Notes under the pieces: model-generated
What the model was told of the DNA's origin: nothing
Database searches by the model: none
The model's input: the letters and a program-made list of their open reading frames with translations, nothing else
Part shown: one piece after another, positions 12,371 through 61,650 of the stretch
How the letters are laid out: every line of letters starts with the position of its first letter
How positions within the stretch are numbered: position 1 is the first letter of the stretch
Source of the DNA: Sphaerolaimus hirsutus
Taxonomy: Eukaryota > Nematoda > Chromadorea > Monhysterida > Sphaerolaimidae
Length of the DNA stretch: 64,000 nt
Direction: 5' to 3'
Assembly: GCA_964036195.1 (NCBI GenBank)
Contig: OZ038460.1
Coordinates: 3,723,504 to 3,787,503 of the forward strand
Made by a program: the position numbers and the translations under genes

Positions 12371-12915
12371 GGCACATTTTTTATGTACTTAAATAGATCG
12401 CTATTGCGTTATTTTATTTTACACATGTAAATTGGTCGACCCTTTGGGAAAATGATGTGTCATATGTAGTGCTCATATTTTAGTTATTGAAATTATCACA
12501 TTTTGCTGGTGGTGATGAGTACAATAATGCTTTAATTGTTGGTGTCTTTAGTTGAAAGTGAAACCGTATTTGTTGGGCCTATTGTTTTTTACATACCGTA
12601 ATCGCTTGAATAAATACACTGAATGTCTAAGTTCTTAAGGAAATTTTGGGGAAATAAATTTTCCGTAAACATCACATAAGCATTGCATCACATTAGGATC
12701 GTTATTTTCGCAATACATTTAGATATTTATTGTTTTTTTTTGGTTGTTTAAAATTGTTTTGAAGGCCATTGTATAGTCGACTTTTTACGTGTACGAGTGT
12801 TTTTTATATCTAGAGTCAATTGAAATTGAAATCACCGGGATAACTACGCACGCTTTATGAACAAATAAATGTGTACGATAACTTTAGTTTAATTGTAGTT
12901 CATTCCAGGTGGCAG

Positions 12916-13082
12916 TCCCAAGCCCTGTAGAGTGTAAAGTAAAGTGTCAAATGCAAAGTAAACTGTCAATTGTCGTGCATAGTTCAGTAATAAAAGCTTT
13001 TCGTTTTTTGTTTTGATTGACACTTTACTTTGTATTTGACTTTACATTTGACACTTTACATTACACTTTACAGGGCTTGGGA
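12916..13082. mobile_element. Palindromic MITE, CCTGTAAAGTGTCA family
   Basis: CCCAAGCCCTGTAGAGTGTA on the left is inverted as TACACTTTACAGGGCTTGG on the right, with TTTGACACTTTAC-type words inside. Relatives in the window: about 13229-13383, 14617-14771, 15107-15246, 21105-21232, 29516-29655, 45085-45235 and 51070-51215. Confidence 0.7.
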
Positions 13083-13117
13083 CCGCCCCTAGCAGATTGT
13101 TTGGGGACTGTTTATCT

Positions 13118-15172: not shown

Positions 15173-18100
15173 TTGCCATTTTGCAGGGCATTTTCCGTGA
15201 CTTTTGACACTTTGCATTACATTTGATATTTTACAGGGCCTGGTATTGGCACCAGTAATCAAATGCATTCAAAAGAGAACTATGGGCTTTCAAAAAAAAA
15301 ATGAATTTCGCAGAAAACTGTTGTGTGTAGTGCCAATCGGAATGAACTAACATTTAATAGTATGGTGAATTTATAGCTACAAATTTAAAAAGTGACCTGT
15401 TTTCAAAATAATATTTCCCTATAACCGCCATCAATTTATCCCTCGCCTTATCAATCGCCTTATTAAATGCATCCATTCCACCAAAATCCTTTCTGCAAAT
15501 AAATGACTGCGGTAGGTTGACAATCCTAATCGGAAAATATCCGTGCATTTTGCAAAAGCGCCGATTTCGGTGTAGATTGCGTGCGATATTTCTGGCACTC
15601 GTTATCTGGATGTAGCCTCCTGTGAGCATGTTGCGGTTTGCAATAAGTTGAGTAGTGAGGTTGAGGGGTTTCAGGCATAGCTGAAATCGGGGGTAGCATT
15701 TTAGGGGAAGGGGGTCGGCCATTTTCAGCTATGCTTTCAGGGCAATCTATCTATCTATCTATCTAGGTATCTTCTAATAGAAGGGTGCCAGTGGTATCTT
15801 GAATTTTGACCCTCCGAGTGGTTGGATAGATAGCAAATCGCTCCTCCGGAGGGATAGATAGCTGAAAAATTTTCTGGGGGGTGGTTGTGGTGGTTCGATA
15901 TATAGGCTTTTTCGGGGCATAGAAGGAAGAAAAGGGAGAAAAATCGCTAAAAGTAGGTGTAAAATAGCTCAAAATGGGTATACAAGAGCATATAGTACTT
16001 AAAATAGCTGAAAATAGGCAGTTAGACGCATGAACCAGTGATTTTGGAGGTGAAAATCTATATATAGGTATGAAAAATAGCGATTTTGAGCGAAAAGTGG
16101 GGTATAGTTTCTGAAAAATCGCTCCAGATAGGTAGATAGCTGGGCGATTTGGGGGGGGGGTTGAGGGGGTAGTAGCCCAAAATTTTGCATCCGGGATAGA
16201 TAGATAGCTGAGCGGCCTCCGGGATATATCGATAGCTGGGTGGTTTGGGGGGGGGGGGTAACCCCCCCCCCAACCCCCCCCCCCCCATTCGAAACCCCTG
16301 AAGGGTGCCCTTAATTTTTTAATAAATTTATCATTTTTTCATCAACCTTTTTTACCTGCTATTTTATCATCTACTGTCATTTTCACGCATTTGGCACAAT
16401 TCCAGCAGTTTTTGATCTTTTTATCGGAGATTATCCTATTTCTTTTGTGGCCGAAATAATGTCAAAACAGTGTACCTTCTATTGTAGACACGGCCTATCT
16501 ATTGAAACCCCAGGGACCACCCCTACAAACTACGCACTCCTAACAAATTTTTATCAGTTACCTATTTATCTGCATAAACAGCAAAAATCAAATTCTTAGC
16601 TACCAAACACAGGTTAAAAAATGGTCACCTTTAAGCAACAGCTTCTCACACTCTTCAGGAGTGGCAAATATAATCGGACTTTTGTCCAAGGCCTCCCTTA
16701 ACTGCACCAGATCACTACTGGCGCCTGTACGTATTGTATTCATAATAAATGATTCATTGCTGTATGATGTAGTGGCCCTGGGTGATGTGGGATGTTGGTT
16801 ATAACTTATAGGTTTGTTTTGGGAGGTCAAATAATCAGGGTTTTTATTATTTAAAGCCAAATTTTTGAGGAAAAGTCATTATGTTTTGTAATTTTGTTGA
16901 TAAAATACCTAGTATGTTTTAGTTGTTTTTGGTCAATTTATGCTTTCAAAATTTCTACTTATGCACAGCAATATGCATGGGATGTTACATTCTTCTTAAT
17001 AATGGATAACTTCTTAATAACTCTCAATGTGTTCACCTTTTATTCTATTGACCTTGTTTCACTTTCATTCACCATGCCCAAATTTTCAAAAAATCACAAA
17101 CAAACTTGCTTTTATCAACCCCTCCCGCATTTTCCATCTATTTATCGTAACTGTGAAATGTTACCCAACAATACCAACAGATGTTTACCCATTTTGAGGA
17201 AGTTTCAGAATTGCGCTAAATAAATGCATCTCTGTTTCATCTAGTTTGACGAATTTTTCCCCATTCTTGCCTTCTACACCTTGAAAAGCCCGTATTTATA
17301 TTGGAACCCTGCCAACATCCCCAACTCCATCCATGTCGCTTACTTGCCACTTTCCCAATGGAATTGGGTATTGTTGTATTGCTCAATGGTCAAGTAAAGT
17401 ATCACTGTTTACTTCAAAATTTTTCAATATTGAATTGAAGTGATAATTAAATAATTGAATTAATTAAATATTTGATAACAGTGCTTTCTAAACTCACTTA
17501 TAACCTTCATTGATGACTTGAGCCAATTCACCAAAATTTGTTGCTAGGATAGCGTGTGCACGTGGCTGCAGGATTATCCCCACATAGATTTTTTGGAACA
17601 GCATAGAAATGAAAAATGCAGTGAATCTGCCCATAAATAGAGCACACCTCATTGACCTTGTTTCATTTTTTCTCACTGTGGTGTAACCCAAATGTGGTTT
17701 ATATTTTGGGTATCTTGGTGCAGATGATCTGGGGCCAGTTCCCACAAGTGAAGAAGTGAAAAGCGACGTGAAATAAAAATAAAGACAAAGTATGAATTCT
17801 AACTGAGAAAGCCTTGTTTCTGATGTTGGTAATGATTATATAGTGAGAAACTTGCCGATTTTTCACTTGCGTCAGAACTTTGGAATTTAAAATGTTACCC
17901 TATTCAAATAACTTCAGTTCAAAATTTCAACTCGCTTTTCACTTCACTTTTCACTTCTCATTTCACTTCGCTTTTCACTTCTTATTGTACTCAGCTTTTC
18001 AGTTCGCCTTTCACTTCTCATTTCACTTCGCTTTTCACTTCTCATTTCACTTCGCTTTTCACTTCTTATTGTACTCAGCTTTTCAGTTCGCCTTTCACTT

Positions 18101-20804
18101 CTCATTTCACTTCGCTTTTCACTTCTCATTTCACTTCGCGTTTCACTTCTTATTGTACTCAGCTTTTCAGTTCGCCTTTCATGTCTCATTTCACTTCGCT
18201 TTTCACTTCTCATTTCACTTCGCTTTTCACTTCTTATTGTACTCAGCTTTTCAGTTCGCCTTTCACTTCTCATTTCACTTCGCTTTTCACTTCTCATTTC
18301 ACTTCGCTTTTCACTTCTTATTGTACTCAGCTTTTCAGTTCGCCTTTCACTTCTCATTTCACTTCGCTTTTCACTTCTCATTTCACTTCGCTTTTCACTT
18401 CTTATTGTACTCAGCTTTTCAGTTCGCCTTTCACTTCTCATTTCACTTCGCTTTTCACTTCTCACTTCTCCACTTGCGGAACTGGCACCTGGGCCACACT
18501 TGCCTGTTTAAAGAGAAAATCGGTTTTCAATTTATTAGCAAATGTGGATGAGGCATACATACCTGATGATATCCCACATAGGTATTATTCCATATTGCAC
18601 AGAATATGTTATTGTTGTTGTGATAGCCACTGTGAATATCAGTGTGAAGCAGACCAGCCATAGTAAACCTGTATGCCAGCACCTTTAAAAACTAGTGTTC
18701 TGGTTACAAAAAAAGCCAAATACCTATTACCTGAGAAGGCACTATATGGTGCCCACAAGTTTGTCAAAAGATTATCAGTGGGTACTTTGTACAGGAACCC
18801 ATAAGAAGCATCAGCAATGGGGTGAGCTAGGGCATATTCTGCACTTCTTTCATATGTATGAGTGTAGAATCGATTCAAACAGTCCACTGAAGACTCATTT
18901 GCTCGTGTGTTTTGGTTGATGTAGCTCAACATCAACAAATTGTCGCTGCACTTTACACAAAGCTCCAAGGTGTGATCACTTTGGAAAGTTCATAAGAAAC
19001 GGGGAATTATGGAACTCGATAAATAGATTTTAAAACTGGAATTCATAGTTCTTAAAACGTATTTACTCGATACTCGATAAATATCAAATAATAATATAAA
19101 TATCAAATTCAGATCAAAGCAGCTTTGTGTCAAGTGCCGCGGACCTAGTAATGCGAATTATCTCGAACTTTATTGCTCCTGTGAATATGTGGTGACAGTG
19201 TTTTTCACAACGGTGACTGTGTTTTTCATTTAAAACTTTCAGATTGTCAACTCTGCGAATACCGTAATTTTTACAATTGCGGTATATCCTCGAAATGCCC
19301 CCAGGGGTGTTTTTTTCAGACAGCCCCTTTAAGATCTGGGTGTATTTCAAGGGGAGCGTAAATCCAGGGCTTGGATTATTTTCATTTCATCAGCGTTTCT
19401 TCAAAATCCATGTGGGATTTTAACATAAACAAAGGTAATCAAATGTGAAACATGTTTTACATTATAGGTAAATTGAAATAATACCCCCCTGGAATAAGCC
19501 CCTCCTAATAAACCCCCTCCACATTTTCTGGCGAAATACTAAACCCCCTGGCCCTGGGGGTATGAAGAGGAAATGCGGTAGAACCAATATGTACCGTATT
19601 TCCTCGAAATACCCCCCCCCCCCCCCCCCTCAAAAGGGGCACTATGAATTTGTGGTCCGGGAAATGCATAACAGACGTTCAAAACACTTGCTGTGTAACG
19701 TTAGAACATCGTTTATACCATCTACCAGAGTTGTTAAAATACCGGTATTTTTGGAAAGTGTAAGTGTAAGCGTAAATACACTTTCCAAATTTTGAGTATG
19801 GATACCAAAGGTGTAAGGTATTTAAAAAATACCTAGGAAAGTGTAAAAAAAGTGTAAGTGTAAAAATTTTTTTTACAAAGGGCTCTCACTGTTGAGCATT
19901 ATAAAACACCACTGTTTTCGCATTTAGATCAATTTATTTATCATTTTCATGCATTATTTCACATTTTACTGCCTTTTATGAAACATTTCAGACTGTAAGA
20001 AATACTGTAGTGGTATGAAGTTCCCTAATAATGGCACTTTTTCAGTGTTGATATTTCACTGATTAAGCAATGCGATACACACTGTTTGAATGGACATGCA
20101 GCAAATGTCAATGCAAAAGCCAGTCGACTTTGTGTCCAGCTGGTGAATTTCCATTGATTTTGTCCTTTTTACAAAAGTATGATGAAACTGTAGAATACCA
20201 CAAGTACTGATCAAAGGCTAGTTTGTAGTACAAACTTTGTACATTTGCCATATTTTCTACATTCAATGCATAACTGCATGTGTGCACTGTGCAGTTATTT
20301 TTTGTACATGACCCTATTTTATGCTTTCTCAAAAGCATAAAACAGGGCCATCTGAAAGAAAAAAATACACTTTCTGTACCCGGGTATTTTCCCAGGAAAG
20401 TGTAAACAAAGTGTATGGGTATTTTATGAAAGTGTAAGTGTAAGTGTAAATATAAATACCCATTTACCCGGGTATTTCAGGTAAGTGTAAATACACTTTC
20501 GCAACTCTGCCATCTACATCCTTATATAAGGCTGTAAAAACTTATCAATGGTGGTTATTGTTGCATTTTTCACGTTTTTCTTTCAAAATTTTCACTCTGA
20601 AAAAATAAACCCCCGGGGTGTAATTCAAGGAAATACGGTAAATACAATCACTAATGTAAATCATTCACCTCTGGACATGTCCTGTACGACGCTTGCGATT
20701 TCTTTTTCAATACCCGGATACGGGCAGTGCAAATTTGGTTTCATAACCCACGGACACTCGTTCGGTTCTGGCCACACCGCCAACCGAATTATTGTCGTGT
20801 TCAT
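14850..20804 (-). CDS. Ionotropic-receptor-like (divergent iGluR) gene, copy A
   Basis: A phase-consistent model has exons 20804-20669, 19178-19145, 18978-18731, 18668-18563, microexon 18503-18489, 17728-17498, 16777-16629, 15619-15397 and 15036-14850 (TAA). It predicts 442 residues. Parts in order: S1 lobe (TTIIRLAVWP, CVKCSDN, ADASYGFLYK, APYSAFS); M1 (LLWLVCFTLIFTVAITTTI); a second hydrophobic segment (FTAFFISMLFQKIYVGII); S2 lobe (LREALDKSPIIFATPEEC, GGYIQIT, LPQSF, AFNKAIDKARDKL); M4 (FLFGSCVAVLWFICFEI). This is the iGluR/IR plan of a ligand-gated cation channel without the large amino-terminal domain. The usual T-x-x-R ligand-binding motif of S1 is absent (KVPTDNLLTNLWAPY), as in divergent IRs, so glutamate is unlikely to be the ligand (inference). 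A signal-peptide exon may lie upstream. The gene is divergent to the mucin gene at 23730. Confidence 0.78.
15789..16300. mobile_element. hAT-type MITE, AGCTATCTATC family
   Basis: CAGTGGTATCTTGAATTTTG and ATTCGAAACCCCTG form the ends, flanked by identical AAGGGTGC (15781-15788 and 16301-16308). It lies in the intron between the last two S2 exons of the IR-like gene. The remaining intron sequence up to 16628 shows no other feature. Confidence 0.9.
17733..18487. mobile_element. Introner-like MITE inside the IR-like gene, copy A
   Basis: Termini GGCCAGTTCCCACAAGTG and CACTTGCGGAACTGGCA are inverted. Flanks are TCTGG (17728-17732) and CCTGG (18488-18492), a 5-bp TSD with one change. On the minus (coding) strand the junctions read CCCAG|GTGCCAG and GGCCCCAG|A. 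Splicing from 18488 to 17729 would therefore remove the element and one TSD and restore CCCAG-ATC in frame. The interior is an 84-bp satellite. The same insertion is in copy B, so it predates the duplication. Confidence 0.8.
17981..18484. repeat. 84-bp minisatellite, 6 units
   Basis: Unit starts CTTATTGTACTCAGC recur at 17981, 18065, 18149, 18233, 18317 and 18401. Each contains two further TCATTTCACTTCGCTTTTCA sub-repeats. It stays open in a frame on both strands because 84 is a multiple of three; this is not taken as coding. Copy B has one unit. Confidence 0.95.
19594..20638. mobile_element. TA-flanked MITE (CCGTATTTCCTCGAAATACC family), interrupted
   Basis: CCGTATTTCCTCGAAATACC begins at 19594 and its inverse ends at 20638, with TA on both sides. 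The copy B version (52255-52514) is 260 bp; copy A is larger because of the insertion at 19726-20509. It lies in intron 1 of the IR-like gene. Confidence 0.8.
19726..20509. mobile_element. hAT-type MITE, CAGAGTTG family (784 bp)
   Basis: Ends are CAGAGTTGTTAAAATACCGG and TTTCGCAACTCTG. Identical 8-bp flanks CCATCTAC lie at 19718-19725 and 20510-20517. Copy B carries the uninterrupted site. Subterminal words are AAGTGTAAGTGTAAG. Relatives: 32834-34161, and ends at about 30150-30218, 32453 and 34674-34737. Confidence 0.9.
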
Positions 20805-21373
20805 ATTTCACAAATGATGGTACACATCTATTTTGCCATTGTTGCCAAATTACCAAATGAAAGTTGGAATTGTTGCCATGTCAGCCGGATGGAGTTCGCA
20901 CAATTGCCTTCATCGAACAATTGACTTTCCAAAATTACGGTCGATTATCTAACTAGTGATGGAAAATCACCGGTACGGTGCTTTTTAAATTTTCAGAGGT
21001 GCCCTTCGGTTCGCTGGCTGTGCCATTTTTCAGAATAGCACGAGTGTGGTGCGATGCCTTTTTCCCTGGTACGTTTGGGTGCTAGCGCCAGGTGCCACTC
21101 CTTGATCTGTAAAAAGCCCCGTAAAATGTCAAATTTTCTGTTATTTTTTACCATTCGTTTGTCATTTTACACGGCTTTTACGTGACGCTTGACATTTTTC
21201 ATGACATTTAACACTTTACAGGGTTTGCGAGTAAACCAGGCGGCCGAGTAAACGGCTCTTCTGGATGTGTAATTTTCTCCCCAGCATGCGCTCATTCGGT
21301 ATTTAGAAACATGGTGCTAGCACCTGGCTACCTGCTGGTGCACCTTGGTGCTGGTGCCATTTTTTAGAATCTA

Positions 21374-21808
21374 CCGTATTTCCTCGAAATACCCCCCGGG
21401 GGGTGATTGTTTCATAGTGGTCCCGAGAGGGGGGGGGGTCAAACGAGGGGGGGGGGTATTTCGAGGGGGGGGGGTTATTATTTCACAAGAAATTTTTTGA
21501 AAACCAAGTACGAAATTGTCGTCTGAAACGTACGCAGACGTCGAAAAATGCGACAAAAACCGCCATTTATAAGGTTCTGTAGACTAATATTAGTATGTAG
21601 ATGGTATGTACACTGTTCTAACGTGACACCGACATTGTTTTAACGTGTGTTCTGCAGTACACTGAACACAAACTACAGTTATTGTCATGTACGTTCCCTT
21701 TACACTCAATTTGGGGGGGGTATTTCGAGGGGGGGGGGTGATTGTTTCATAGTGGTCTCGAGAGGGTGGGGGGTCAAACGAGGGGGGGGGTATTTCGAGG
21801 AAATACGG
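21374..21808. mobile_element. TA-flanked MITE, CCGTATTTCC family
   Basis: CCGTATTTCCTCGAAATACC and its inverse AGGAAATACGG are flanked by TA. Long G tracts fill the interior. It is not found at the matching place in copy B (about 53450-53500). Confidence 0.75.
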
Positions 21809-21953
21809 TATTACCCGTGCAGCTGGATCTGGTGCATTATTACCCGGAGCTGTTTTACATCACTATAACTGACTTTCTGTAATCTATTTACCTAATTCAA
21901 TTCTTTTCTGCATATAAAAATGCAGTGAGTTCCAGTCAAAAGTGCATACCAGG

Positions 21954-22168
21954 TGCCGGTTCCGCAAGTGGAAAAGTTAAGAGTTAATTGAGAGTTGTAT
22001 AAAATGATAAATGATAAGTTAAGAGTAAAGTTAAAAGTTAAGAGTTGAGTAAATTCATTTGCCGTTTTACTCAACTCTTAACTCTTAACTTTACTCATAA
22101 CTTGTCATTTGTCATTTTACTCAACTCTTAACTTTTAACTCTTAACTTTTCCACTTGCGGAACTGGCC
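21954..22168. mobile_element. Introner-like MITE in intergenic DNA (copy A only)
   Basis: TGCCGGTTCCGCAAGTGG and CCACTTGCGGAACTGGCC form the ends; flanks are CCAGG and CCTGG. Copy B has the empty site GCATACCTGGTAAGCG at about 53605. The interior is AGTTAAGAGTTAA repeats. Confidence 0.85.
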
Positions 22169-23010
22169 CCTGGTAAGCGTCGAAAATTGAGTTAAGCAAA
22201 TGTATCCGGGCAGTGTTACGCTCTTTTTAGAAGGAAAATTAGCATATTGTTCTCGCCAACAATATAAAATCGCAATTTTACACACGGTGGATCAAAGCAC
22301 TTTGTGCAATGAGAATTGATAGCTCTGCACGTATTTGAAAGCATGGAAGTTTTTTAAACCTTAGGCTTTGAATGCACAGTCAATATTCTGACTTGACTCT
22401 TGACATTTGATACTTTCAAGAAAGTTTTTATGTGGAACTATTCTGCGTCAGCAAATAGAATCATTCCGGTCGTATCAAATAACTTCAGGTATTTTACTCT
22501 GATAAGTAAAATGGTGACGTGATTTACATTTAATGCATTGCATAACGTTAAATATGTCATGAATAGAAAAATGTTCAAAAATTATGATTTACAACAAAAT
22601 GTTCAAGTTGTCTATCGATGGGTTGATTGTTTCGGCGATGTGTGTTCATGATTAGTGATGTAAAGGCACCGGGGCACCGAAGGGCACCAGCACCGGTAAT
22701 TTCCAAGACATTGCAACGCAGCGAATAAGTACGATAACATTAGACTGTCATTGTTTTCTTCTATTTTTCTGGTATTTTATACTGAATCCATGTTCTGAAT
22801 CATGGCTTTTCTAAGAAACAATTCCTAAAAAACGGAAAAACGCTCAACAACACTAGTTACTCACGCATTTTTCCCAAGACAAAACAAAAACAATCACATT
22901 CGTCGTTATGAATACTGTTTCTTCCATTTTCACAATCAGTATCACTGTGCAAGGCTTGCTTGAAATATAGATGTAAATCTGTATTTTTCTGCTGAAATCA
23001 CAGCGTAGTA
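22169..23010. other. Intergenic DNA between the IR-like and mucin-like genes
   Basis: Apart from a GGCACC-rich hAT-like fragment near 22655-22700, nothing was recognised. It is conserved in copy B at about 53610-54420. Confidence 0.4.
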
Positions 23011-23729: not shown

Positions 23730-25786
23730 ATGCATGCAAAACTACTCACACTTGCATCCCTGATCGCATTTGGCGCCTGCAATGCACTTGAATGGCCCAC
23801 AGGCGACAGTGGCCAAAACTTACTGCACTGGGTAAAGTTCCAATCTTTATATCCAGCAAAATGTGATAAGATAGAGTTTTTTACATGAAGCGCAATTCCC
23901 AGGTTGCGTGTCACTCATTTTGTGCCACCTCATTTGGAGATGAGAAGGAAATGCAGTATCCTTGTCAAAAACAGTGCTTAAAGGGTACCCCTAAAGAGTG
24001 CCCTACATTTGCATCAGTAACAACTGCACCTCCAACAACTACACCTTCAGCAACTGCATCTCCAACAACTGCACCTCCAACAAGTACATCTCCAACAAAT
24101 GCACATCCTACAAGCGCAAATCCAGCTCCAACAAGTGCACCTTCAACAACTGCACCTCCAACAACTGCACCTCCAACAAGTGCACCTCAAACAAATGCAT
24201 CTCCAACGACTAGACCAACAACAAATGCACCTCCAACAAGTGCACCTCCAGCAAATGCACCTCCGAGAAGTGCACCTTCAACAAATGCATCTCAAACAAC
24301 TACACAAACAACAAATGCATCTCTATCAAATGCACCACCAAGAAGTGCACCTTCAACAACAACAGATGCATCTGCAACAGCTACACAAACAACAAGGGCA
24401 CCTCCAAGTAGTGCATCTCCAACAAATGCATCTGCAACAGCTACACAAACAACAAGGGCGCCTCCAAGTAGTGCATCTCCAACAAATGCATCTGCAACAG
24501 CTACACAAACAACAAGGGAACCTCCAAGTAGTGCATCTCCAACAAATGCATCTCCAACAAATGCACCTCAAACAAATGCACCTCCAAGTAGTGCATCTGC
24601 AACAAATGCACCTCCAAGTAGTGCATCTCCAACAAATGCACCTCCAAGTAGTGCATCTCCAACAAATGCATCTCCAACAAATGCACCTCCAAGTAGTGCA
24701 TCTGCAACAAATGCACCTCCAAGTAGTGCATCTCCAACAAATGCACCTCCAAGTAGTGCATCTCCAACAAATGCACCTCCAAGTAGTGCATCTCCAACAA
24801 ATGCATCTCCAACAAATGCACCTCCAAGTAGTGCATCTGCAACAAATGCACCTCCAAGTAGTGCATCTGCAACAAATGCACCTCCAAGTAGTGCATCTCC
24901 AACAAATGCACCTCCAAGTAGTGCATCTCCAACAAATGCACCACAAACAAATGCACTTCCAAGTAGTGCATCTGCAACAAATGCACCTCCAAGTAGTGCA
25001 TCTCCAACAAATGCACCTCCAAGTAGTGCATCTCCAACAAATGCATCTCCAACAAATGCACCTCCAAGTAGTGCATCTACAACAAATGCACCACAAACAA
25101 ATGCACCTCCAAATAGTGCATCTCCAACAAATGCATCTCCAACAAATGCATCTCCAACAAATGCACCTCAAACAAATGCACCTCCAAGTAGTGCATCTGC
25201 AACAAATGCACCTCCAAGTAGTGCATCTCTAACAAATGCACCTCCAAGTAGTGCATCTCTAACAAATGCACCTCCAAGTAGTGCATCTCCAACAAATGCA
25301 TCTCCAACAAATGCATCTCCAACAAATGCACCTCCAAGTAGTGCATCTGCAACAAATGCACCTCCAAGTAGTGCATCTCCAACAAATGCACCTCCAAGTA
25401 GTGCATCTACAACAAATGCACCACAAACAAATGCACCTCCAAATAGTGCATCTCCAACAAATGCTTCTCCAACAAATGCACCTCCAAGTAGTGCATCTCC
25501 AACAAATGCACCTCAAACAAATGCACCTCCAAGTAGTGCATCTCCAACAAATGCACCGCAAACAAATGCACCTCCAAGTAGTGCATCTCCAACAAATGCA
25601 TCTCCAACATATGCACCTCCAAGTAGTGCATTTACAACAAATGCATCCCCAACAGGGACACCAACAACAAATGCACCTCCAAGAAGTTTGCCTCAGACAA
25701 CTGCACATCCAACAACCACACCTGCGACAACTCCACTTCCAACAACTACAGCATACACATGCCCCCAACAGCCTGACAGGGGTTAG
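23730..25786 (+). CDS. Secreted mucin-like Thr/Ser/Pro/Ala repeat protein, copy A
   Basis: Two exons are inferred: 23730-23831 (34 codons) and 23903-25786, joined in phase 0 by a 71-bp GT-AG intron (TGG|gtaaag ... tcccag|GTT). The predicted product is 661 residues. Residues 1-19 form a signal peptide (MHAKLLTLASLIAFGACNA). A short Cys-containing segment with five cysteines follows (ACHSFC, PCQKQC, KECP). About 560 residues of 10-residue repeats of the type NAPPSSASPT follow, dense in O-glycosylation sites, then a short tail with a sixth Cys (AYTCPQQP). The organisation is that of a secreted mucin or cuticle/mucus protein. Terminal cysteines could link chains (inference). Without the intron the signal peptide would be separated from the repeats by a stop. 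A poly(A) signal AATAAA is at 25917. Confidence 0.8.
24390..25660. repeat. 30-bp coding tandem repeat array of the mucin, copy A
   Basis: The basic unit is ACAAATGCACCTCCAAGTAG plus TGCATCTCCA. Near the start three 60-bp units carry GCAACAGCTACACAAACAAC. Because all units are multiples of three and lack most stops, long alternative frames stay open on both strands. Confidence 0.95.
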
Positions 25787-26380: not shown

Positions 26381-26878
26381 TAGTGATGGAAAAGCGCCAG
26401 AAAAAAGGGCGCCAGGCGCCAATGGCGCCATGGCGCAATTCAGAAAGTGGGCGCCAAGCGCCAAGGGCGCCACAGAAAAAGGGCGCTGGGCGCCAAGGGC
26501 GCCATGGCGCCATTCGGAAAGCGGGCTCCAGGCGCCAAGGGCGCCACGGAACCGTTGCACAAAAGATTTATACCCACTCACACCACTTCGTCCATTTTTC
26601 TAGCGAATTCAGATCATCCATTAATGCATTTTTCATTTTTATTCCATGTACTCACCTTGAAACCCTGCTGGCGCCTTTTTGGCGCCCTTTAAAAGCAGGG
26701 CGCCAGGCGCCAAGGGCGCCACGGAAAACGGGCGCCAAGCGCCAACGCCAAGGGCGCCATGGCGCCTTTCAGAATGTGGGCGCCACAGAAAAAGGGCGCC
26801 AAGCGCCAATGGCGCCATGGCGCGGCGCCCTTTGGCGCCCTCAAATGGCGCCAGCGCCATGGCGCCATTCCATCACTA
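26381..26878. mobile_element. hAT-type MITE built of GGCGCC words (copy A only)
   Basis: TAGTGATGGAAAAGCGCC and GGCGCCATTCCATCACTA form the ends, with identical flanks GCCTCAAC (26373-26380 and 26879-26886). Copy B has the empty site GTGCCTCAACCCTC at about 57497. The insertion is 35 bp upstream of the Cys-rich exon at 26914. Confidence 0.93.
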
Positions 26879-30241: not shown

Positions 30242-32167
30242 CCGTATTTCTTCTAATAGAACGGCGCCGTTCTATTTTTTCGTCAGCCTTTTTACCTGCC
30301 GTTCTATTGGAGGTGCCGTTCTATTGGAGATGCCGTTCTATTGGAGGCTGCCATTCCATTCAGATTCAAATGATTATCGACAAATTGATTTGAGCAAAAT
30401 TTACAAAATTGACCTTTTTATCCAACGTTTTTCATTCAAATTTGAATTTTACATCTCGCATATACTAAATTTGTGGGAAAACTTGAATATTGAACATGAA
30501 TTTTGAATAAAAAACTTGAAAACTATAAAAATAATAAATTTTTCGGTGACCTTTTATATGTCGGTTCACCTTTTATATGTCGGTTCACCTTTTATATGTC
30601 GTTATGCGGTAAATCCACCAAACCGCTCATTTAGATTACCATAAACGACCTTGCAATTTGCATGCTTGCACGCAAAGATTGCCAAGGCATTGCATTTCAA
30701 TGCAAGCGAATTAGTAGCAGTACAACGTTAAGCTGTCATTGTTTTCTTCTGGTTTTCTGATATTTTTTGATTAACCAAAACAATCGCATTTCGTATTCAT
30801 CGGTATAACGCGTAGTTTCTGATCTTTTTTCACGATCAGTGCCACTATATATGTATTTACAGAGCTTACTTCGAACTGAGCTGTAAATCTCCATCTCTCA
30901 GCTGTAGCCACAACATACCGTATTCCCTCGAAATAAACCTCCCCTTGAACTGACCGCCCTCGAAATACCCCCGTCTGGAATAAGGTACATCATTTATGCA
31001 AGGTACATGATGTATGTATTTGTGATGTTAATTTGCATCGCAGCTACACATAGACTACCCTAAATTCTCGAACATGTCCTCAGAGGAGTTAAATTTTTGC
31101 CAGAGTTTATGAGGGGGTGTTATTCGAGGGGGGGGCGAGTTATTCAAGAGGGGAGTTATTTTATCCCCAGAAGTTGTTTCAGGAAAACATAGATTACATT
31201 CATTGTAAAAATTCATTCCGTCAACTCAACAAATACAGGTATTAAACAGTTCAACAACAACAAAAACAAAGTATCCCTCCTAAAATTTATGTTCATCTGA
31301 TCCGATTGATTCAAATACACACATGTAGGTGTAGACTGCGTATTTTACACATTGTGTATCTGCTGTCGGCGCCAGCATAAATATTATGCTAACCAATGTA
31401 GGTTGTATTTCTTCGTTTCACACACTGCACTGCATTTGCATTCCATGGATCAGGGCTAGTGATGTAAAAGCGCCATGGCGCTTGGCGCTAAAATGCTGTG
31501 GCGCCATTGGCTCTTGGCGCCGTGCTTCCGAAGGGCGCCATGGCGCTTTTGGCGCTTGCCGCTACTTTTCTGTGGTTCCACTGGCGTTTGGCGCTAGAAT
31601 TTTATAAAGCGCCAAAAAGCGCCAGAGAGTGAAAATTTTGACGCGGTAGTTCACGAAAAGTTGCACAAAAATTTCATCAGACAGCGGTGAATCCAAGTCT
31701 AAAGCTGTGTTTACACTGTCACGTGTGCGGACAAACATTTTCTGTATTGGGACATAAGTTTCACAAAATGGGACATAAGTTTCACAAAACGGACACTTTC
31801 CGGAAAAAAATTACCATAATCCACTTTTTTCTTTACTTGGAACGAGCGTGGACATAACCACCCTTCCCATAGGTTAAATAGCTCCACTATTCTGCTTACA
31901 TGGACGCTGTGATTTAATGGCTTTGGTCCATTGATTTTGTGCTATTTGAACATCAAATGTTGAATGAATTCTATGTACACCCATTCTATGAACTGTCTGT
32001 GACGTAACACTTTTAAAAACCTTAGCAGAACTTAAAAAAGATTGGCTGAATAGTTAATGAAAACAATAGAAGGACGGTCTCAAATAGAAGGGCGTCTCCA
32101 ATAGAAGGGCAGGTAAAAAAGTTGATGAAAAAAATAGAAGGGCGCCTTTCTATTAGAAGAAATACGG
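30242..32167. mobile_element. 1.9-kb TA-flanked TIR element (CCGTATTTCTTCTAATAGAA)
   Basis: The left arm CCGTATTTCTTCTAATAGAA with CCTGCCGTTCTATTGG repeats is inverted at 32050-32167. TA lies on both sides. Other repeats sit inside, including a TAGTGATGTAAAAGCGCC hAT-like end at 31457. In copy B the left arm is at 59738 but the right arm is missing because homology stops at 61650. Confidence 0.75.
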
Positions 32168-45641: not shown

Positions 45642-46051
45642 CAGTATTACCGTCGAAATACCCCCAGGGGGGTTTATTATTTCGCCAGCAAAATTTGAGG
45701 GGGGATAATTCGAGGGGGGTCTATTATTTCGCCAGAAATTTTCAGAAATTCCCCATACTCAGATGTAGAAAAATCAAACAATTACATAGATGTATATGTG
45801 TTTATAGGCATATATAACTGTATCTACACATAAAACATTCCTTAACATCACTCAATCATCATTTTTCACGTGTGTTCCGCATTGTACAGATCACAAACTG
45901 CGGTATTTGTCATGTACGTTCACTTGACACTCAATTTTGGGGGGGTGTATTTCGAGGGGGGCGTTTATTATTTCCTCAGCCGAATATTAGGGGGGGGGTA
46001 TTTCGAGGGGGGGGTTTATTCAAAGGGGGGGGATAATTCGAGGTAATACGG
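45642..46051. mobile_element. TA-flanked MITE, GTATTACCTCGAAATACCCC family (copy B only)
   Basis: CAGTATTACCGTCGAAATAC and CGAGGTAATACGG are the ends, flanked by TA. Copy A has the empty site GTTGAGTAGTGAGG at about 15647. Confidence 0.88.
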
Positions 46052-47613: not shown

Positions 47614-48034
47614 CCGTATTACCTCGAAATACCCCCATGGGGGTTTATTATTTCGCCAGCAAAATTTGAGGGGGGGTTAATTCGAGGGGGGGGTTTATTC
47701 GAGGGGGGGTTTTATTATTTCGCCAGAAATTTTCGTGAAATTCATAGTAAAGAGTACGGTTTTTCTAACACAAAAACGGTAATAAATGTGAGAAAGTGGG
47801 TTATATTTGGGCTATAGATGTACATCTGTACGCAAATAAGCGTATAAGTGTAGCTGCGATGCAAATAAGTAGTAATAAATACATCATGTACATTGCATCC
47901 ATGATGTACATCATTCCGGAGGGGGGGGGTATTTCGAGGGGGGGGTTATTTTTTCCCCAGCCCATTTTGAGGGGGGGTTAATTCGAGGGGGGGGGGGGTT
48001 AATTCAAGGGGGGGGATAATTCGAGGTAATACGG
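47614..48034. mobile_element. TA-flanked MITE, CCGTATTACC family (copy B only)
   Basis: CCGTATTACCTCGAAATACC and its inverse GAGGTAATACGG lie between TA dinucleotides. Copy A has the empty site ACCTATTTATCTGC at about 16560. Confidence 0.9.
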
Positions 48035-49189
48035 TAACTGCAAAAACAGGAAAAATCAAATTCTTAGCTACCAAACACAGGTTAAAAAATGGTCACCTTT
48101 AAGCAGCAACTTTTCACACTCTTCAGGAGTGGCAAATATAATCGGACTTTTGTCCAAGGCCTCCCTTAACTGCACCAGATCACTACTGGCGCCTGTACGT
48201 ATGGTATTCATAATAAATGATTCATTGCTGTATGATGTAGTGGCCCTGGGTGATGTGGGATGTTGGTTATAACTTATAGGTTTGTTTTGGGAGGTCAAAT
48301 AATCAGGGTTTTTATTATAAAAAGCCAAATTTTTGAGGAAAAGTCATCATGTTTTGTAATTTTCGTGATAAAATACCTAGTATGTTTTAGTTGTTTTTGG
48401 TCAATTTATGCTTTCAAAATTTCTACTTATGCACAGCAATATGCATGGGATGTTACATTCTTCTTAATAATGGAACATCACTCTCAATGTGTTCACATTT
48501 TGTTCTATTGACCTTGTTTCACTTTCACCATGCCCAATTTTTCATAAAAATCACAAACAAACTTGCTTTTATCAACCCCTCCCGCATTTTCCATCTATTT
48601 ATCGTAACTGTGAAATGTTACCCAACAATACCAACAGATGTTGACCCATTTTGAGGAAGTTTCAGAATTGCGCTAAATAAATGCATCTCTGTTTCACCTA
48701 GTTTGACGAATTTTCCCCCATTTTTGCCTTCTACACCTTGAAAAGCCCGTATTTATATTGGAACACTGCCAACATCCCCAACCCCATCCATGTCGCTTAC
48801 GTGCCACTTTCCCAATGGAATTGGGTATTGTTGTTTTGCTCAATGGTCAAGTAAAATATCACTGTTTACTTCAAATTTTTTCAATATTGAATTGAATTGA
48901 TAATTAAATAATTGAATCAATTAAATATTTGATAACAGTGCTATCTAAACTCACTTATAACCTTCATTGATGATTTGAGCCAATTCACCAAAATTTGTTG
49001 CTAGGATAGCGTGTGCACGTGGCTGCAGGATTATCCCCACATAGATTTTTTGGAACAGCATAGAAATGAAAAATGCTGTGAATCTGCCCACAAATAGAGC
49101 ACACCTCATTGACCTTGTTTCATTTTTTCTCACTGTGGTGTAACCCAAATGTGGTTTATATTTTGGGTATCTTGGTGCAGATGATCTGG

Positions 49190-49909
49190 GGCCAGTTCCC
49201 ACAAGTGAAGAAGTGAAAAGCGACGTGAAATAAAAATAAAATAAAAATACCGTATTACCTCGAATTACCCCCCCTTGAATTAACCCCCCCCCCCTCGAAA
49301 TACCCCCCTAAAATTGAGTGTAACGTGAACGTACGTGACAAATACCGCAGTTTGTGATCTGTACAATGCAGAACACATGTTAAAACTGATGATTAAGTGA
49401 CGTTAATAAGGGTTTTGGTGTATATACAGTTATATATGCCTATAAACACATATACATCTATGTAATTGTTCGATTTTTCTACGTCTGCGTATGGGAAATT
49501 TCCGAAAATTTCTGGCGAAATAATAGACCCCCCCTCGAATAAACCCCCCCTCGAATTATCCCCCCCTCAAATTTTGCTGGCGAAATAATAAACCCCCTGG
49601 GGGTATTTCGAGGTAATACGGTAGACTTAAAGTATGAATTCTGACTCAGAAAGCATTGTTTCTGATGTTGGTAATGATTATATAGTGAGAAACATGCCGA
49701 TTTTTCACTTGCGTCAGAACTTTGGAATTTAAAATGTTACCCTAATCAAATAACTTCAGTTTAAAATTTCAACTCGCTTTTCACTTCACTTTTCACTTCT
49801 TATTGTACTCAGCTTTTCAGTTCGCCTTTCACTTCTCATTTCACTTCGCTTTTCACTTCTCATTTTACTTCCCATTTCACTTCTCACTTCTCCACTTGCG
49901 GAACTGGCA
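49190..49909. mobile_element. Introner-like MITE inside the IR-like gene, copy B
   Basis: Same insertion as 17733-18487: GGCCAGTTCCCACAAGTG ... CTTGCGGAACTGGCA with TCTGG/CCTGG flanks. Only one 84-bp satellite unit remains (about 49799-49882). A TA-flanked MITE (49250-49621) has jumped into it. Confidence 0.8.
49250..49621. mobile_element. TA-flanked MITE nested in the introner-like element
   Basis: CCGTATTACCTCGAATTACC and its inverse GAGGTAATACGG are flanked by TA. Absent from copy A. Confidence 0.88.
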
Positions 49910-53146: not shown

Positions 53147-54456
53147 GGTGCAATGCCCTGGTTCCTTTGGGTGCTAGCGCCTAGTGCCACTCCTTGATCT
53201 GTAAAATGCCCCGGAAAATGTCAAATTTTCTGTTATTTTTTACCATTCGTTTGTCATCTTACACGGCTTTTACGTGACGTTTGACATTTTGCATGACATT
53301 TAACCTTTTACAGGGTTTGCGAGTGAACCAGGCGGCCGAGTAAACGGCTCTTTTGGATGTGTAATTTTCTTCCCAGCATGCGCTCATTCAACCTATTTAA
53401 AAACATGGTGCTAGCACCTGGCTACCTGCTGGTGCACCTTGGTGCTGGTGCCATTTTTTAGAATGGCATCACTGTTGCGAATGCGGTGCGGTGCCATATT
53501 ACCCGGAGCTGTTTTACATCACTATAACTGATGTAAAACAATCTATTTACTTAATTTAATTCTTTTCTGCATATAAAAATGCAGGGAGTTCCATTCCAAA
53601 AGTGCATACCTGGTAAGCGTCGAAAGTTGAGTTACGCAAATGTATCCGGGCATAGTTACGCCCTATTTAAAAGGAAAATTAGCAAATTGTTCTCTCCAAC
53701 ATTTCATAAAAAATCGCAATTTTACACACGATGGATCAACGCACTTTGTGCAATGAGAATTGATAACTCTGCACGTATTTGAAAGCATGGAAGTTTTTTA
53801 AACCTTAGGCTTTGAATGCACAGTCAATATTCTGACTTGACTCTTGACATTTGATACTTTCAAGAAAGTTTTTATGTGGAACTATTCTGCGTTAGCAAAT
53901 AGAATCATTCTGGTCGTATCAAATAACTTCAGGAATTTTGCCCTGATAAGTAAAATGGTAATGTGATTTACATTTAATGCATTGCAGAACGTTAAATATG
54001 TCATGAGTAGAAAAATGTTCAAAAATTATGATTTAAAACAAAATGTTCAAGTTGCCGATCGATGGGTTGATTGGTTCGGCGATGTGTCTTCATGATATTG
54101 CACACAAGCATTTCCAAGACATTGCAACGCAGCGCATAAGTACGATAACATTAGGCTGTCATTGTTTTCTTCTATTTTTCTGATATTTTATACTGAATCC
54201 ATGTTCTGAATCATGGCCTTCCTAAAAAACAATTCCTAAAAAACGGAAAAACGCTCAACAACACTAGTTACTCACACATTTTTCCCAAGACAAAACAAAA
54301 ACAATCGCATTCGTCGTTATGAATACCGTTTCTTCCATTTTCACAATCAGTACCACTGTGCAAGGCTTGCTTGAAATATAGATGTAAATCTGTATTTTTC
54401 TGCTAAAATCACAGCATAGTATCACAGTATTACACCACAAGCACCAAAGAACTAAA
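53147..54456. other. Intergenic DNA upstream of mucin copy B
   Basis: It matches 21060-23729 of copy A minus the three insertions found there. No additional feature recognised. Confidence 0.5.
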
Positions 54457-56897
54457 ATGCATGCAAAACTACTCACACTTGCATCCCTGATCGCATTTGG
54501 CGCATGCAATGCACTTGAATGGCCCACAGGCGACAGTGGCCAAAACTTACTGCACTGGGTAAAGTTCCAATCTTTATATCCAGCAAAATATGATAAGATA
54601 GAGTTTTTTACATGAAGCGCAATTCCCAGGTTGCGTGTCACTCATTTTGTGCCACCTCATTTGGAGATGAGAAGGAAATGCAGTATCCTTGTCAAAAACA
54701 ATGCTTGAAGGGTACCCCTAAAGAGTGCCCTACATTTGCATCAGTAACAACTGCACCTCCAACAACTACACCTTCAGAAACTGCATCTCCAACAACTGCA
54801 CCTCCAACAAGTACATCTCCAACAAATGCACATCCTACAAGCGCACATCCAGCTCCAACAAGTACACCTTCAACAACTGATCCTCCAACAACTGCACCTC
54901 CAACAAGTGCACCTCAAACAAATGCATCTCCAACGACTACACCAACAACAAATGCACCTGCAACAAATGCACCTCCAGCAAATGCACCTCCGAGAAGTGC
55001 ACCTTCAACAAATGCATCTCAAACAACTACACAAACAACAAATGCATCTCTATCAAATGCACCACCAAGTAGTGCATCTACAACAAATGCATCTGCAACA
55101 GCTACACAAACAACAAGGGCACCTCCAACAAATGCACCTCCAAGAAGTGCATCTACAACAAATGCATCTGCAACAGCTACACAAACAACAAGGGCACCTC
55201 CAACAAATGCACCTCCAAGAAGTGCATCTACAACAAATGCATCTGCAACAGCTACACAAACAACAAGGGCACCTCCAACAAATGCACCTCCAAGAAGTGC
55301 ATCTACAACAAAAGCATCTGCAACAGCTACACAAACAACAAGGGAACCTCCAAGTAGTGCATCTCCAACAAATGCATCTCCAACAAATGCATCACCAACA
55401 AATGCACCTCCAACAAATGCATCTCCAACAAATGCATCACCAACAAATGCACCTCCAAGAAGTGCATCTACAACAAATGCATCTGCAACAGCTACACAAA
55501 CAACAAGGGAACCTCCAAGTAGTGCATCTCCAACAAATGCATCTCCAACAAATGCATCACCAACAAATGCACCTCCAAGTAGTGCATCTACAACAATTGC
55601 ATCTGCAACAGCTACACAAACAACAAGGGAACCTCCAAGTAGTGCATCTCCAACAAATGCAACTCCAACAAATGCATCACCAACAAATGCACCTCCAAGT
55701 AGTGCATCTGCAACAAATGCACCTCAAACAAATGCACCTCCAAGTAGTGCATCTCCAACAAATGCATCTCCAACAAATGCACCTCCAAGTAGTGCATCTG
55801 CAACAAATGCACCTCCAAGTAGTGCATCTCCAACAAATGCACCTCCAAGTAGTGCATCTGCAACAAATGCACCTCAAATGAATGCACCTCCAAGTAGTGC
55901 ATCTCCAACAAATGCACCTCCAAGTAGTGCATCTGCAACAAATGCACCTCCAAGTAGTGCATCTCCAACAAATGCACCTCCAAGTAGTGCATCTGCAACA
56001 AATGAACCTCCAAGTAGTGCATCTCCAACAAATGCACCTCAAACAAATGCACCTCCAAGTAGTGCATCTCCAACAAATGCATTTCCAACATATGCACCTC
56101 CAAGTAGTGCATCTGCAACAAATGCACCTCCAAGTAGTGCATCTCCAACAAATGCACCTCCAACAAATGCACCTCCAACAAATGCACCTCCAAGTAGTGC
56201 ATCTCCAACAAATGCATCTCCAACAAATGCACCTCCAAGTAGTGCATCTGCAACAAATGCACCTCCAAGAAGTGCATCTCCAACAAATGCACCTCAAACA
56301 AATGCACCTCCAAGTAGTGCATCTCCAACAAATGCATCTCCAACAAATGAACCTCCAAGTAATGCATCTCCAACAAATGCACCTCAAACAAATGCACCTC
56401 CAAGTAGTGCATCTCCAACAAATGCATCTCCAACATATGCACCTCCAAGTAGTGCATCTGCAACAAATGCACCTCCAAGAAGTGCACCTCCAACAAATGC
56501 ACCTCAAACAAATGCACCTCCAAGTAGTGCATCTCCAACAAATGCATCTCCAACAAATGCACCTCCAAGTAGTGCATCTCCAACAAATGCACCTCCAAGT
56601 AGTGCATCTGCAACAAATGAACCTCCAAGTAGTGCATCTCCAACAAATGCACCTCAAACAAATGCACCTCCAAGTAGTGCATCACCAACAAATGCATTTC
56701 CAACATATGCACCTCCAAGTAGTGCATCTACAACAAATGCACACCCAACAGCTACACCAACAACAAATGCACCTCCAACAAATGCACCTCCAAGAAGTTT
56801 GCCTCAGACAACTGCACATCCAACAACCACACCTGCGACAACTCCACTTCCAACAACTACAGCATACACATGCCCTCAGCAGCCTGGCAGTGGTTAG
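54457..56897 (+). CDS. Secreted mucin-like Thr/Ser/Pro/Ala repeat protein, copy B
   Basis: Exon 1 is 54457-54558 and exon 2 is 54630-56897, again with a 71-bp phase-0 GT-AG intron. The predicted product is 789 residues, 128 longer than copy A. The signal peptide and the five-Cys segment are the same. The repeat region differs: it starts with several units containing NAPPRSASTT and NASATATQTTR, then PPSSASPTNA-type 10-mers. The tail is AYTCPQQPGSG. The promoter region lacks the 682-bp transposon seen in front of copy A. A poly(A) signal AATAAA lies at 57043. Confidence 0.8.
55070..56740. repeat. Coding tandem repeat array of the mucin, copy B
   Basis: Early units of about 75 bp containing GCAACAGCTACACAAACAAC are followed by 30-bp units of the CCTCCAAGTAGTGCATCTCC type. 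Order and number of units differ clearly from copy A. Confidence 0.95.
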
Positions 56898-59737: not shown

Positions 59738-61650
59738 CCGTATTTCTTCTAATAGAACGGCGCCGTTCCATTTTTTCGTCAGCCTTTTTACCTGCCGTTC
59801 TATTGGAGGTGCCGTTCTATTGGAGGCTGCCATTCCATTCAGATTCAAATGATTATCGACAAATTGATTTTAGCAAAATTTACAAAATTGACCTTTTTAT
59901 CCAACGTTTTTCATTAAAATTTGAATTTAACGTCTCGCATATACTAAATTTGTGGGAAAACTTGAATATTGAACATGAATTTTGAATAAAAAACTTGAAA
60001 ACTATAAAAATAAGAATTTTTTCGGTGACCTTTTATATGTCGGTTCACCTTTTATATGTCGTTATGCGGTAAATCTACCAAACCGCTGATTTAGATTACC
60101 ATAAGCGACCTTGGAATTTGCATGCTTGCACGCAAAGATTGCCAAGGCATTGCATTTCAATGCAAGCGAATTAGTAGCAGTACAATAACGTTCAGCTGTC
60201 ATTGTTTTCTTCTGGTTTTCTGATATTTTTTGATCAAACAAAACAATCGCATTTCGTATTCATCCGTATAACGCGTAGTTTCTGATTTTTTTTCACGATC
60301 AGTGCCACTATATATGTATTTACAGAGCTTACTTCGAACTGATTTTCAAATCTCCATCTTTCAGCTGTAGCCACAACATACCGTATTCCCTCGAAATAAA
60401 CCTCCCCTTGAACTGACCCCCCTCGAAATACCCCCGTCTGGAATAAGGTACATCATTTATGCAAGGTACACGATGTATGTATTTGTGTTTGTATTTTGTA
60501 TATGTTAATTTGCATCGCAGCTACACATAGACTACCCTAAATTCTCGAATAAGTTCTCAGAGGAGTTATATTTTTTCCAGAGTTTATGAGGGGGTGTTAT
60601 TCGGGGAGGGGGTTATTCAAGAGGGGGGTTATTTTATCCCCAGAAGTTGTTTCAGGAAAACATAGACTACATTCATTGTAAAAATTCATTCCGTCAACTC
60701 AACAAATGCAGGTATTTAACAGTTCAACAACAACAAGAACAAAGTATCCCTCCTAAAATTCATGTTCATCTTCATTCGATTCATTCAAATACACACATGT
60801 AGGTGTAGACTGCGTATTTTACACATTGTGAATCTGCTGTCGGCGCCACCATAAATATTATGCTAACCAATGTAGGTTGTATTTTTTCGTTTCACACACT
60901 GCACTGCATTTGCATGGATCAGGTGCCAGTTCCGCAAGTGGAAAAGTTAAGAGTTAAAACTTAAGAGTTGAGTAAAATGATAAATGATAAGTTAAGAGTA
61001 AAGTTAAAAGTTAAGAGTTGAGTAAAATCGTTTGTCGTTTTACTCAACTCTTAACTCTTAACTTTACTCATAACTTGTCATTTGTCATTTTACTCAACTC
61101 ATAAGTTTTAACTCTTAACTTTTCCACTTGCGGAACTGGCCTCAGGGCTAGTGATGTAAAAGCGCCATGGCGCTTGGTGCTAATATGTGGTGGCGCCATT
61201 AGCTCTGGGCGCCGTGCTTCCGAGAGGCGCCATGGCGCTTTTGGCGCTTGCCGCTACTTTTCTGTGGTGCCACTGGCGTTTGGCGCTAGCATTTTATAAA
61301 GCGCCAAAAAGCGCCAGAGAGTGAAAATTTTGACGCGGTAGTTCACGAAAAGTTGCACAAAAATTGCATCAGACAGCGGTGAATCCGAGTCTAAAGCTGT
61401 GTTTACACTGTCACATGTGCGGACAAACATTTTCTGTATTGGGACATAAGTTTCACAAAATGGGACTTAAGTTTCACAAAACGGACACTTTCCAGAAAAA
61501 ATTCTACCATAATCCACTTTTTTCATTACTTGGAACAAGAGTGGACATAACCACCCTTCCCATAGGTTAAATAGCTCCACTATTCTGCTTACACGGATGC
61601 TGTGATTTAATGGCTTTGGTCCATTGATTTCGTGCTATTTTAACATCAAA
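59738..61650. mobile_element. Left part of the CCGTATTTCTTC element, right end missing
   Basis: It matches 30242-31956 but is cut where copy B homology ends. It includes the nested introner-like MITE 60924-61141 and GGCGCC-rich DNA. Confidence 0.65.
60924..61141. mobile_element. Introner-like MITE with perfect 5-bp TSD (copy B only)
   Basis: TGCCAGTTCCGCAAGTGG and CCACTTGCGGAACTGGCC are flanked by TCAGG on both sides (60919-60923 and 61142-61146). Copy A has the empty site GGATCAGGGCTAG at about 31447. This copy defines the TSD length as 5 bp. Confidence 0.93.

Follow-up and report, generated by a model that had tools for sequence, protein, structure and literature searches.

A NuwaI-like MITE that probably became a spliceosomal intron on insertion into a coding exon of Sphaerolaimus hirsutus

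A duplicated gene carrying the insert

The window analysed here, a stretch of 64,000 nucleotides of Sphaerolaimus hirsutus DNA (contig OZ038460.1, positions 3,723,504 to 3,787,503), contains a minus-strand gene in which a 757-bp MITE splits a coding exon. In the first copy of this gene (copy A), exon A (18989-18731) is an open frame with a GTAATA donor and a matching structure in the second copy, exon B (18668-18563) was defined by AG/GT boundaries and frame, and a 15-nt microexon (18503-18489) lies upstream of the insertion. Exon D lies at 17728-17498, and for exon E (16759-16629) a GTGACC donor recognized by visual inspection gave the 3′ end. Once joined, the five exons form a single open frame, and the native introns among the first three are 62 and 59 nt long. 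Protein, Pfam, and PDB searches returned no significant relative of the encoded protein; since no search assigned it a family, the label "IR-like" in the initial annotation is an impression only. Hydrophobic stretches of the protein, including one in exon B, were recognized by eye.

The element itself occupies 17732-18488 on the minus strand and leads with its GT-type end (GTGCCAGTTCCGCAAGTGGAGAAGTGA ... CACTTCTTCACTTGTGGGAACTGGCCC). Its two ends are inverted relative to each other, and it includes 6.3 copies of an 84-bp tandem repeat (17937-18468). The proposed intron (18488-17729, 760 nt) consists of the element plus one CAG target copy. The final CAG of the microexon (18491-18489) is the first target copy and the CAG at 17731-17729 is the second, so that both the last three bases of the exon and the AG of the proposed acceptor derive from target copies. 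The minus-strand junctions read ...GTGGCCCAG (to 18489) / GTGCCAGTTCC ... GGAACTGGCCCCAG (to 17729) / ATCATCTGC (from 17728). Excision of the element with one target copy rejoins the frame exactly, and retention of the insert would introduce 40 in-frame stops and a frame shift. The sequence, the junction coordinates, and the phase of the microexon as first annotated were all borne out. The insertion into coding sequence also held, but the limits given for the element, 17733-18487, were each one base short.

The splice pattern could nevertheless differ from exact removal if the microexon were lost together with the element. The native donor at 18562 would then be joined to 17728, QVWPR would be lost in frame, and the element would only lengthen an old intron. 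Very short exons are frequently skipped, skipping here keeps the frame because 15 is a multiple of 3, and the new donor, GTGCCA, is a poor fit to the metazoan consensus at positions +4 to +6, which counts against exact splicing. The microexon is identical in the two gene copies (15/15), which is weak evidence against its loss, and four further insertions described below (copy 5, L072, L082, and L134) are flanked by longer coding sequence on either side and are not explained by microexon skipping. We regard skipping as unlikely and return to exact removal of the element as the preferred reading.

The second gene copy (copy B; 50411-48097, minus strand) has exons at 50411-50153, 50090-49985, 49925-49911, 49185-48955, and 48227-48097, which likewise join in frame. 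Its intron at 49910-49186 is the same insertion as in copy A, with a shorter tandem repeat and a second MITE nested within the element at about 49241-49628; if retained, this insert would bring 16 in-frame stops and a frame shift. The copy near 17.7 kb and that near 49.2 kb represent a single insertion inherited through segmental duplication and not two events.

The segmental duplication pairs 13.4-32.0 kb with 43.6-61.7 kb, and its aligned pieces are about 83-98 percent identical. The duplicates differ by the presence or absence of many inserts and can be used as a catalogue of empty sites. The second MITE (ends ACCGTATT.CCTCGAA, with a G-rich interior) was found at 45642-46050, 47614-48037, 49241-49628, and 21371-21830; it inserted repeatedly, on one occasion (in copy B) inside the first MITE, and every copy is missing from the duplicate. 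Insertions at 19726-20511 and 26381-26878 (plus strand) are also missing from the duplicate; the former, with an 8-bp repeat and ends resembling CAGAGTTG...CAACTCTG, is hAT-like by eye. A long, mucin-like frame rich in Thr, Ser, and Pro with 15-bp repeats is present in both duplicates at different lengths (23870-25786 and 54597-56897, plus strand).

Comparison of the exons of copies A and B gave 5 synonymous changes over 163 sites and 4 non-synonymous changes over 578 sites, corresponding to a dN/dS of about 0.23. The difference between non-synonymous and synonymous sites had a one-sided Fisher p of 0.028, and a p of 4e-4 when intron sites were added to the synonymous ones. Over exons A-D alone there was 1 synonymous change against 4 non-synonymous ones and no such contrast, which makes the result dependent on exon E. 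Within the element's unique part, 6 of 137 sites differed, a level comparable to that of the introns. These values suggest that the duplicated gene has been under purifying selection while carrying the insert, and the gene seems functional. If instead the gene copies were decaying, the insert would be merely a disruptive transposon. The lack of any homologue or domain among the search results for the host protein, the substitution counts over exons A-D, and the second MITE nested in copy B would fit such decay. All 742 nt of exon are nevertheless open in both copies with their splice sites kept, the dN/dS of 0.23 holds when exon E is included, and two paralogs carry two different insertions that are each exactly removable. 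Decay is in our view improbable, and we continue with a functional host gene.

Paralog 3 and the gain of the intron

A third paralog (L031) lies at and beyond the left edge of the window. Its coding sequence up to the junction described below (...GFLHKKP) lies at 369-186 on the minus strand, and its dN/dS against copy A was about 0.2 over 42 codons. At the place where copies A and B are interrupted, paralog 3 has RQVWPRSSAPRYPKY within one unbroken exon, in which the microexon is continuous with exon D. The DNA there reads GGCCAAGATCATC, and copy A reads GGCC-CAG-element-CAG-ATCATC; after removal of the insert the lengths are equal. Because paralog 3 has this exon uninterrupted, we interpret the insertion shared by copies A and B as having created the intron, that is, as an intron gain.

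Paralog 3 carries its own, independent insertion of the same family in a different exon (copy 5), of which the part within the window lies at 185-1 on the minus strand (CAG/GTGCCAG ... GGACCCAG/ATCAC). The copy 5 intron is 344 nt long (C16:3723345-3723688, window coordinate 185 down to -158). Its removal gives KKPDHFWINLWAPF in frame, and its retention would give in-frame stops.

The gain would be only apparent if the MITE had landed in an intron that was already present. Some copies of the family are indeed intronic, among them L069 and L070, which lie 13 and 15 nt after apparent native donors. For the insertion in copies A and B this was ruled out by the unbroken exon of paralog 3; the paralog has no intron at the site, and coding sequence adjoins the element on both sides. 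An old intron at this locus is thus extremely improbable, and the interpretation of intron gain stands as the one we pursue. The introner-like character proposed in the initial annotation is, in this respect, structurally well supported by the unbroken paralog exon, copy 5, and the three unrelated genes described below, but the origin that it assigned to the target duplication and to the donor G is not, as set out in the next section.

The element family, its target, and its copies in other genes

We searched the 348-Mb assembly (762 contigs) for the GT end of the element, whose ends are written for the family as GGGCCAGTTCCGCAA. Within the window, GGTGCCAGTTCC with up to two mismatches occurred 13 times against 3.2 expected. 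Across the genome, the exact 18-mer CAGGTGCCAGTTCCGCAA, which stands beside CAG, occurred 838 times, and the exact 18-mer CTGGTGCCAGTTCCGCAA, which stands beside CTG, occurred 933 times, with no occurrence of the reversed control in either case. The excess in the window and the genome counts against the reversed controls rule out a chance similarity of the termini. A scan of viral contigs with the terminus gave no match.

For closer inspection, 90 copies were fetched (70 with the CAG pattern and 20 with the CTG pattern), with loci taken in contig order, C1 and then C2, passing over L028 (a CAG place) and the CTG place beside L054. After dropping 8 CAG copies and 1 CTG copy without a recognizable right end and 4 CAG copies that repeated the flank of another, 77 distinct copies with both ends recognized remained (58 CAG and 19 CTG), with a median length of 227 bp. 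The target copies were CAG on both sides in 32 and CTG on both sides in 13 (identical in 45 of 77), differed only at the central W in 13, and differed otherwise in 19; this agreement is somewhat inflated because the right-end script gave a bonus to CWG and matching targets, the left CAG or CTG being fixed by the search pattern. The base before the target was C in 46 of 77 copies, and the base after it was G in 28 of 58. The right end, read inward, was GGG in 59 of 77 copies; the left end, GTG, was fixed by the search pattern, and the GGG-type TIR start is therefore met at one end only.

The genome copies fit a 3-bp CWG duplication within a CCWGG-like site (CAG at this locus). The duplication had been annotated as the 5-bp NCAGG, which is wrong: right flanks such as CCAGA, CCTGG, TCAGG, and others rule it out. 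A 2-bp YC duplication, with AGG belonging to the element, was favoured on the window copies and was ruled out by the CTG at the left of L013 and L009. The accompanying claim that the donor G comes from the target duplication also fails. Because the duplication is the 3-bp CAG, the element carries the whole donor GT, G and T alike.

Two further family copies within the window have empty sites in the segmental duplicate. The copy at 21953-22169 (plus strand) has CAG at its left and CTG at its right, with an empty site at 53610-53612, and the copy at 60923-61142 (plus strand) has CAG on both sides, with an empty site at 31451-31453. These empty sites confirm clean insertion for both copies, and paralog 3 supplies a paralogous empty site for the insertion in copies A and B. 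The 21.9-kb copy (21950-22172 with its targets) belongs to the W-mismatched cases, and its empty site reads CTG. Another MITE family, which has GTGGCAGTCCC / GGGCGGTCCC at its ends and shows the same GT/GG asymmetry, resembles this one and was seen at 12909-13088 (plus strand) and at L062 and L011; the target is CAG at the left and CTA at the right of the 12909-13088 copy, and CAG on both sides at L062.

Open reading frames that span the junction and measure 150 nt or more were compared with Pfam, using 240 nt on each side and up to two frames per strand, and matches were considered at E values up to 0.01. These comprised 64 frames from 42 CAG loci in the sense direction, 47 from 32 CAG loci in the antisense direction, and 28 CTG frames from 20 strand-loci. 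For 3 of the 70 CAG-class copies (L072, L082, and L134), evidence from the protein sequence supports an exon that is interrupted precisely at the junction. L072, in a FANCJ-like helicase, aligned without gaps with human FANCJ across the junction (E 6e-5); this alignment is better evidence than its Pfam match (Helicase_C_2, 0.0028), which is below the Pfam cut-off and begins 7 residues past the junction. L134, in an ANF/mGluR-like receptor, matched Pfam ANF_receptor across the junction (2e-6) and aligned without gaps with mGluR3 (E 0.003). L082 lies within a C2H2 finger, with a whole-sequence value of 6.8e-13 for zf-H2C2_5 from three fingers, the best of which spans the junction. If retained, the three inserts would add 3 (L072), 5 (L082), and 2 (L134) in-frame stops.

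Counting the insertion in copies A and B and copy 5, five independent exon positions show an intron structure in the DNA, formed by related sequences whose similarity extends to the splice boundaries. For introners, the intron is expected to be absent from a homologue: paralog 3 lacks it for copies A and B, and the FANCJ and mGluR3 proteins are gapless across the junctions of L072 and L134. Scaled to the 838 CAG copies, the proportion of 3 in 70 suggests that introns of this kind number in the tens, with a wide error.

Several other copies were less clear. L069 gave a sense match to LplA-B (0.0068, below the cut-off) in a lipoyltransferase-like gene. L068 matched the PSMD5 family in the antisense direction (1.5e-10) and was read by eye as intronic because a GTGAGT donor lies 35 nt before the element. 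L064 and L083 looked coding-like by eye and had no domain in Pfam, nor did L064 have a PDB match at E values up to 1. L118 is an exonic-looking sense copy, zinc-finger-like by eye and without a Pfam match; because its right target copy reads CTG, it has no AG at the right junction. The CTG copy L097 is apparently located in a frame that codes on the opposite strand, and a homologue search for it found none. If exonic, L118 and L097 would be non-spliceable exonic copies.

The initial annotation had looked to an excess of copies in spliceable orientation, and the results on this point diverged. Joined frames were longer in the sense than in the antisense direction for the 58 CAG copies (Wilcoxon p 0.009), with no sense advantage for the 19 CTG copies. 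A frame-shift control showed no excess of exact joins in any of eight groups; for sense copies with matched CAG targets, exact joining won in 7.8 of 32 cases against 10.7 expected. CAG copies were also slightly fewer than CTG copies (838 against 933). Across the genome, no reliable excess of copies of the spliceable class was seen, and enrichment is not claimed because the frame-shift control gave no signal despite the signal in frame length.

The family may be an ordinary MITE family and no dedicated introner, in which rare spliceable hits in exons survive without any preference for genes, and we give this possibility an even chance. The counts of 838 and 933, the lack of an excess in frame continuity, the shortness of the joined frames (90 to 198 nt) at the window copies near 21.9 and 60.9 kb, and the finding of a domain-supported exonic position in only 3 of 70 CAG copies all point this way. 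The sense bias in frame length, present in CAG copies and absent in CTG copies, points the other way, as does the fact that the domain-supported exonic cases all belong to the spliceable class (3 of 3, about 0.09 by chance, the class making up 42 of the 94 scanned strand-loci). On the genome counts and the lack of a reliable excess, we describe the family as, for the most part, an ordinary MITE that occasionally gives rise to introns. The question bears on the status of the family and is compatible with the reading that, at this locus, the insert became an intron on insertion.

Proposed mechanism and known systems

We propose that the insert is probably a non-autonomous DNA transposon of the NuwaI type (PHIS/Harbinger) that became a spliceosomal intron on insertion. 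In copies whose GT end is the upstream one and whose target is CAG on the coding strand, the gene has the form CAG/GT...CAG/, and removal of the element with one CAG restores the frame exactly. The spliceosome would use the terminal GT of the element as the donor. The purine-rich left end would, as an inverted repeat, give a pyrimidine-rich tract at the right, in which TTCAC or TTAAC motifs may act as branch points. The first AG after this tract, that of the second target copy, would serve as the acceptor; the AG-free stretch before it is 68 nt in copy A, 71 nt in copy B, and 46 nt in copy 5.

The proto-splice site is CAG/G. Because the target resembles this site, an exonic insertion would have about a one-in-four chance, set by orientation and target strand, of becoming an intron that can be removed exactly, and copies of this kind would survive in coding genes. 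The earlier statement that any NCAGG insertion in this orientation gives the same result can thus be restated: a GT end upstream, combined with a CWG that reads CAG on the coding strand, is one of four combinations. We suggest, tentatively, that a single change from G to T at one end may have turned a NuwaI MITE with a CCWGG target, corresponding to the proto-splice CAG/G, into a maker of introns. It may have produced tens of exact introns, perhaps in an ongoing process, and NuwaI-type elements in other genomes could be adding introns to animal genes in a way that has been overlooked.

Intron gain in progress is seldom observed in animals, and here an insertion, an unbroken paralog, and signs of selection on the gene that carries the insert are found together. 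The target site of the transposon would explain how an intron that can be removed exactly arises. In genomes with GT-ended elements of the NuwaI type, exonic copies are predicted to be mainly in sense orientation with a CAG target. The element would work, by analogy, in the manner of introners that use their target-site duplications, and its distinguishing feature would be a target that resembles the proto-splice site. The target of zebrafish Harbinger3 is palindromic with a CWG core and is longer than the target here, and we know of no link between Harbinger3 and introns. The group that studied introners derived from DNA transposons has reportedly described horizontal transfer of introners in a later paper.

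Introners, as described in PMC9860276, are similar sequences that make introns at new sites in exons, with TIRs, TSDs, and a splice site recruited from the TSD; they derive from DNA transposons, and mRNA length is usually unchanged. They were reported there in just two animal groups, and the main text of that study makes no mention of Harbinger. In the introner of Chrysochromulina (PMC9860276), the 5′ splice site is part of the element and the 3′ splice site is co-opted, the arrangement also proposed here, but that introner has a 4-bp TSD and no TIR, in contrast to the CWG TSD and TIRs of our element. The present family also differs from the introners of PMC9860276 in having no demonstrable enrichment in genes.

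Among the matches listed in our literature search, whose coverage leaves subscription journals and preprints largely outside, we found no paper that ties NuwaI to intron gain, and the available text of PMC4482050, which describes NuwaI as a member of the PHIS superfamily, makes no mention of intron creation. According to that text, NuwaI has a 3-bp CWG TSD, shown by paralogous empty sites, and a TIR that usually starts with GGG, and within that survey it was found only in animals (PMC4482050). The elements in S. hirsutus resemble NuwaI in the CWG duplication, the GGG end, and the paralogous empty sites. They differ from it in that one end reads GTG rather than GGG, and it is this end that would supply the splice donor.
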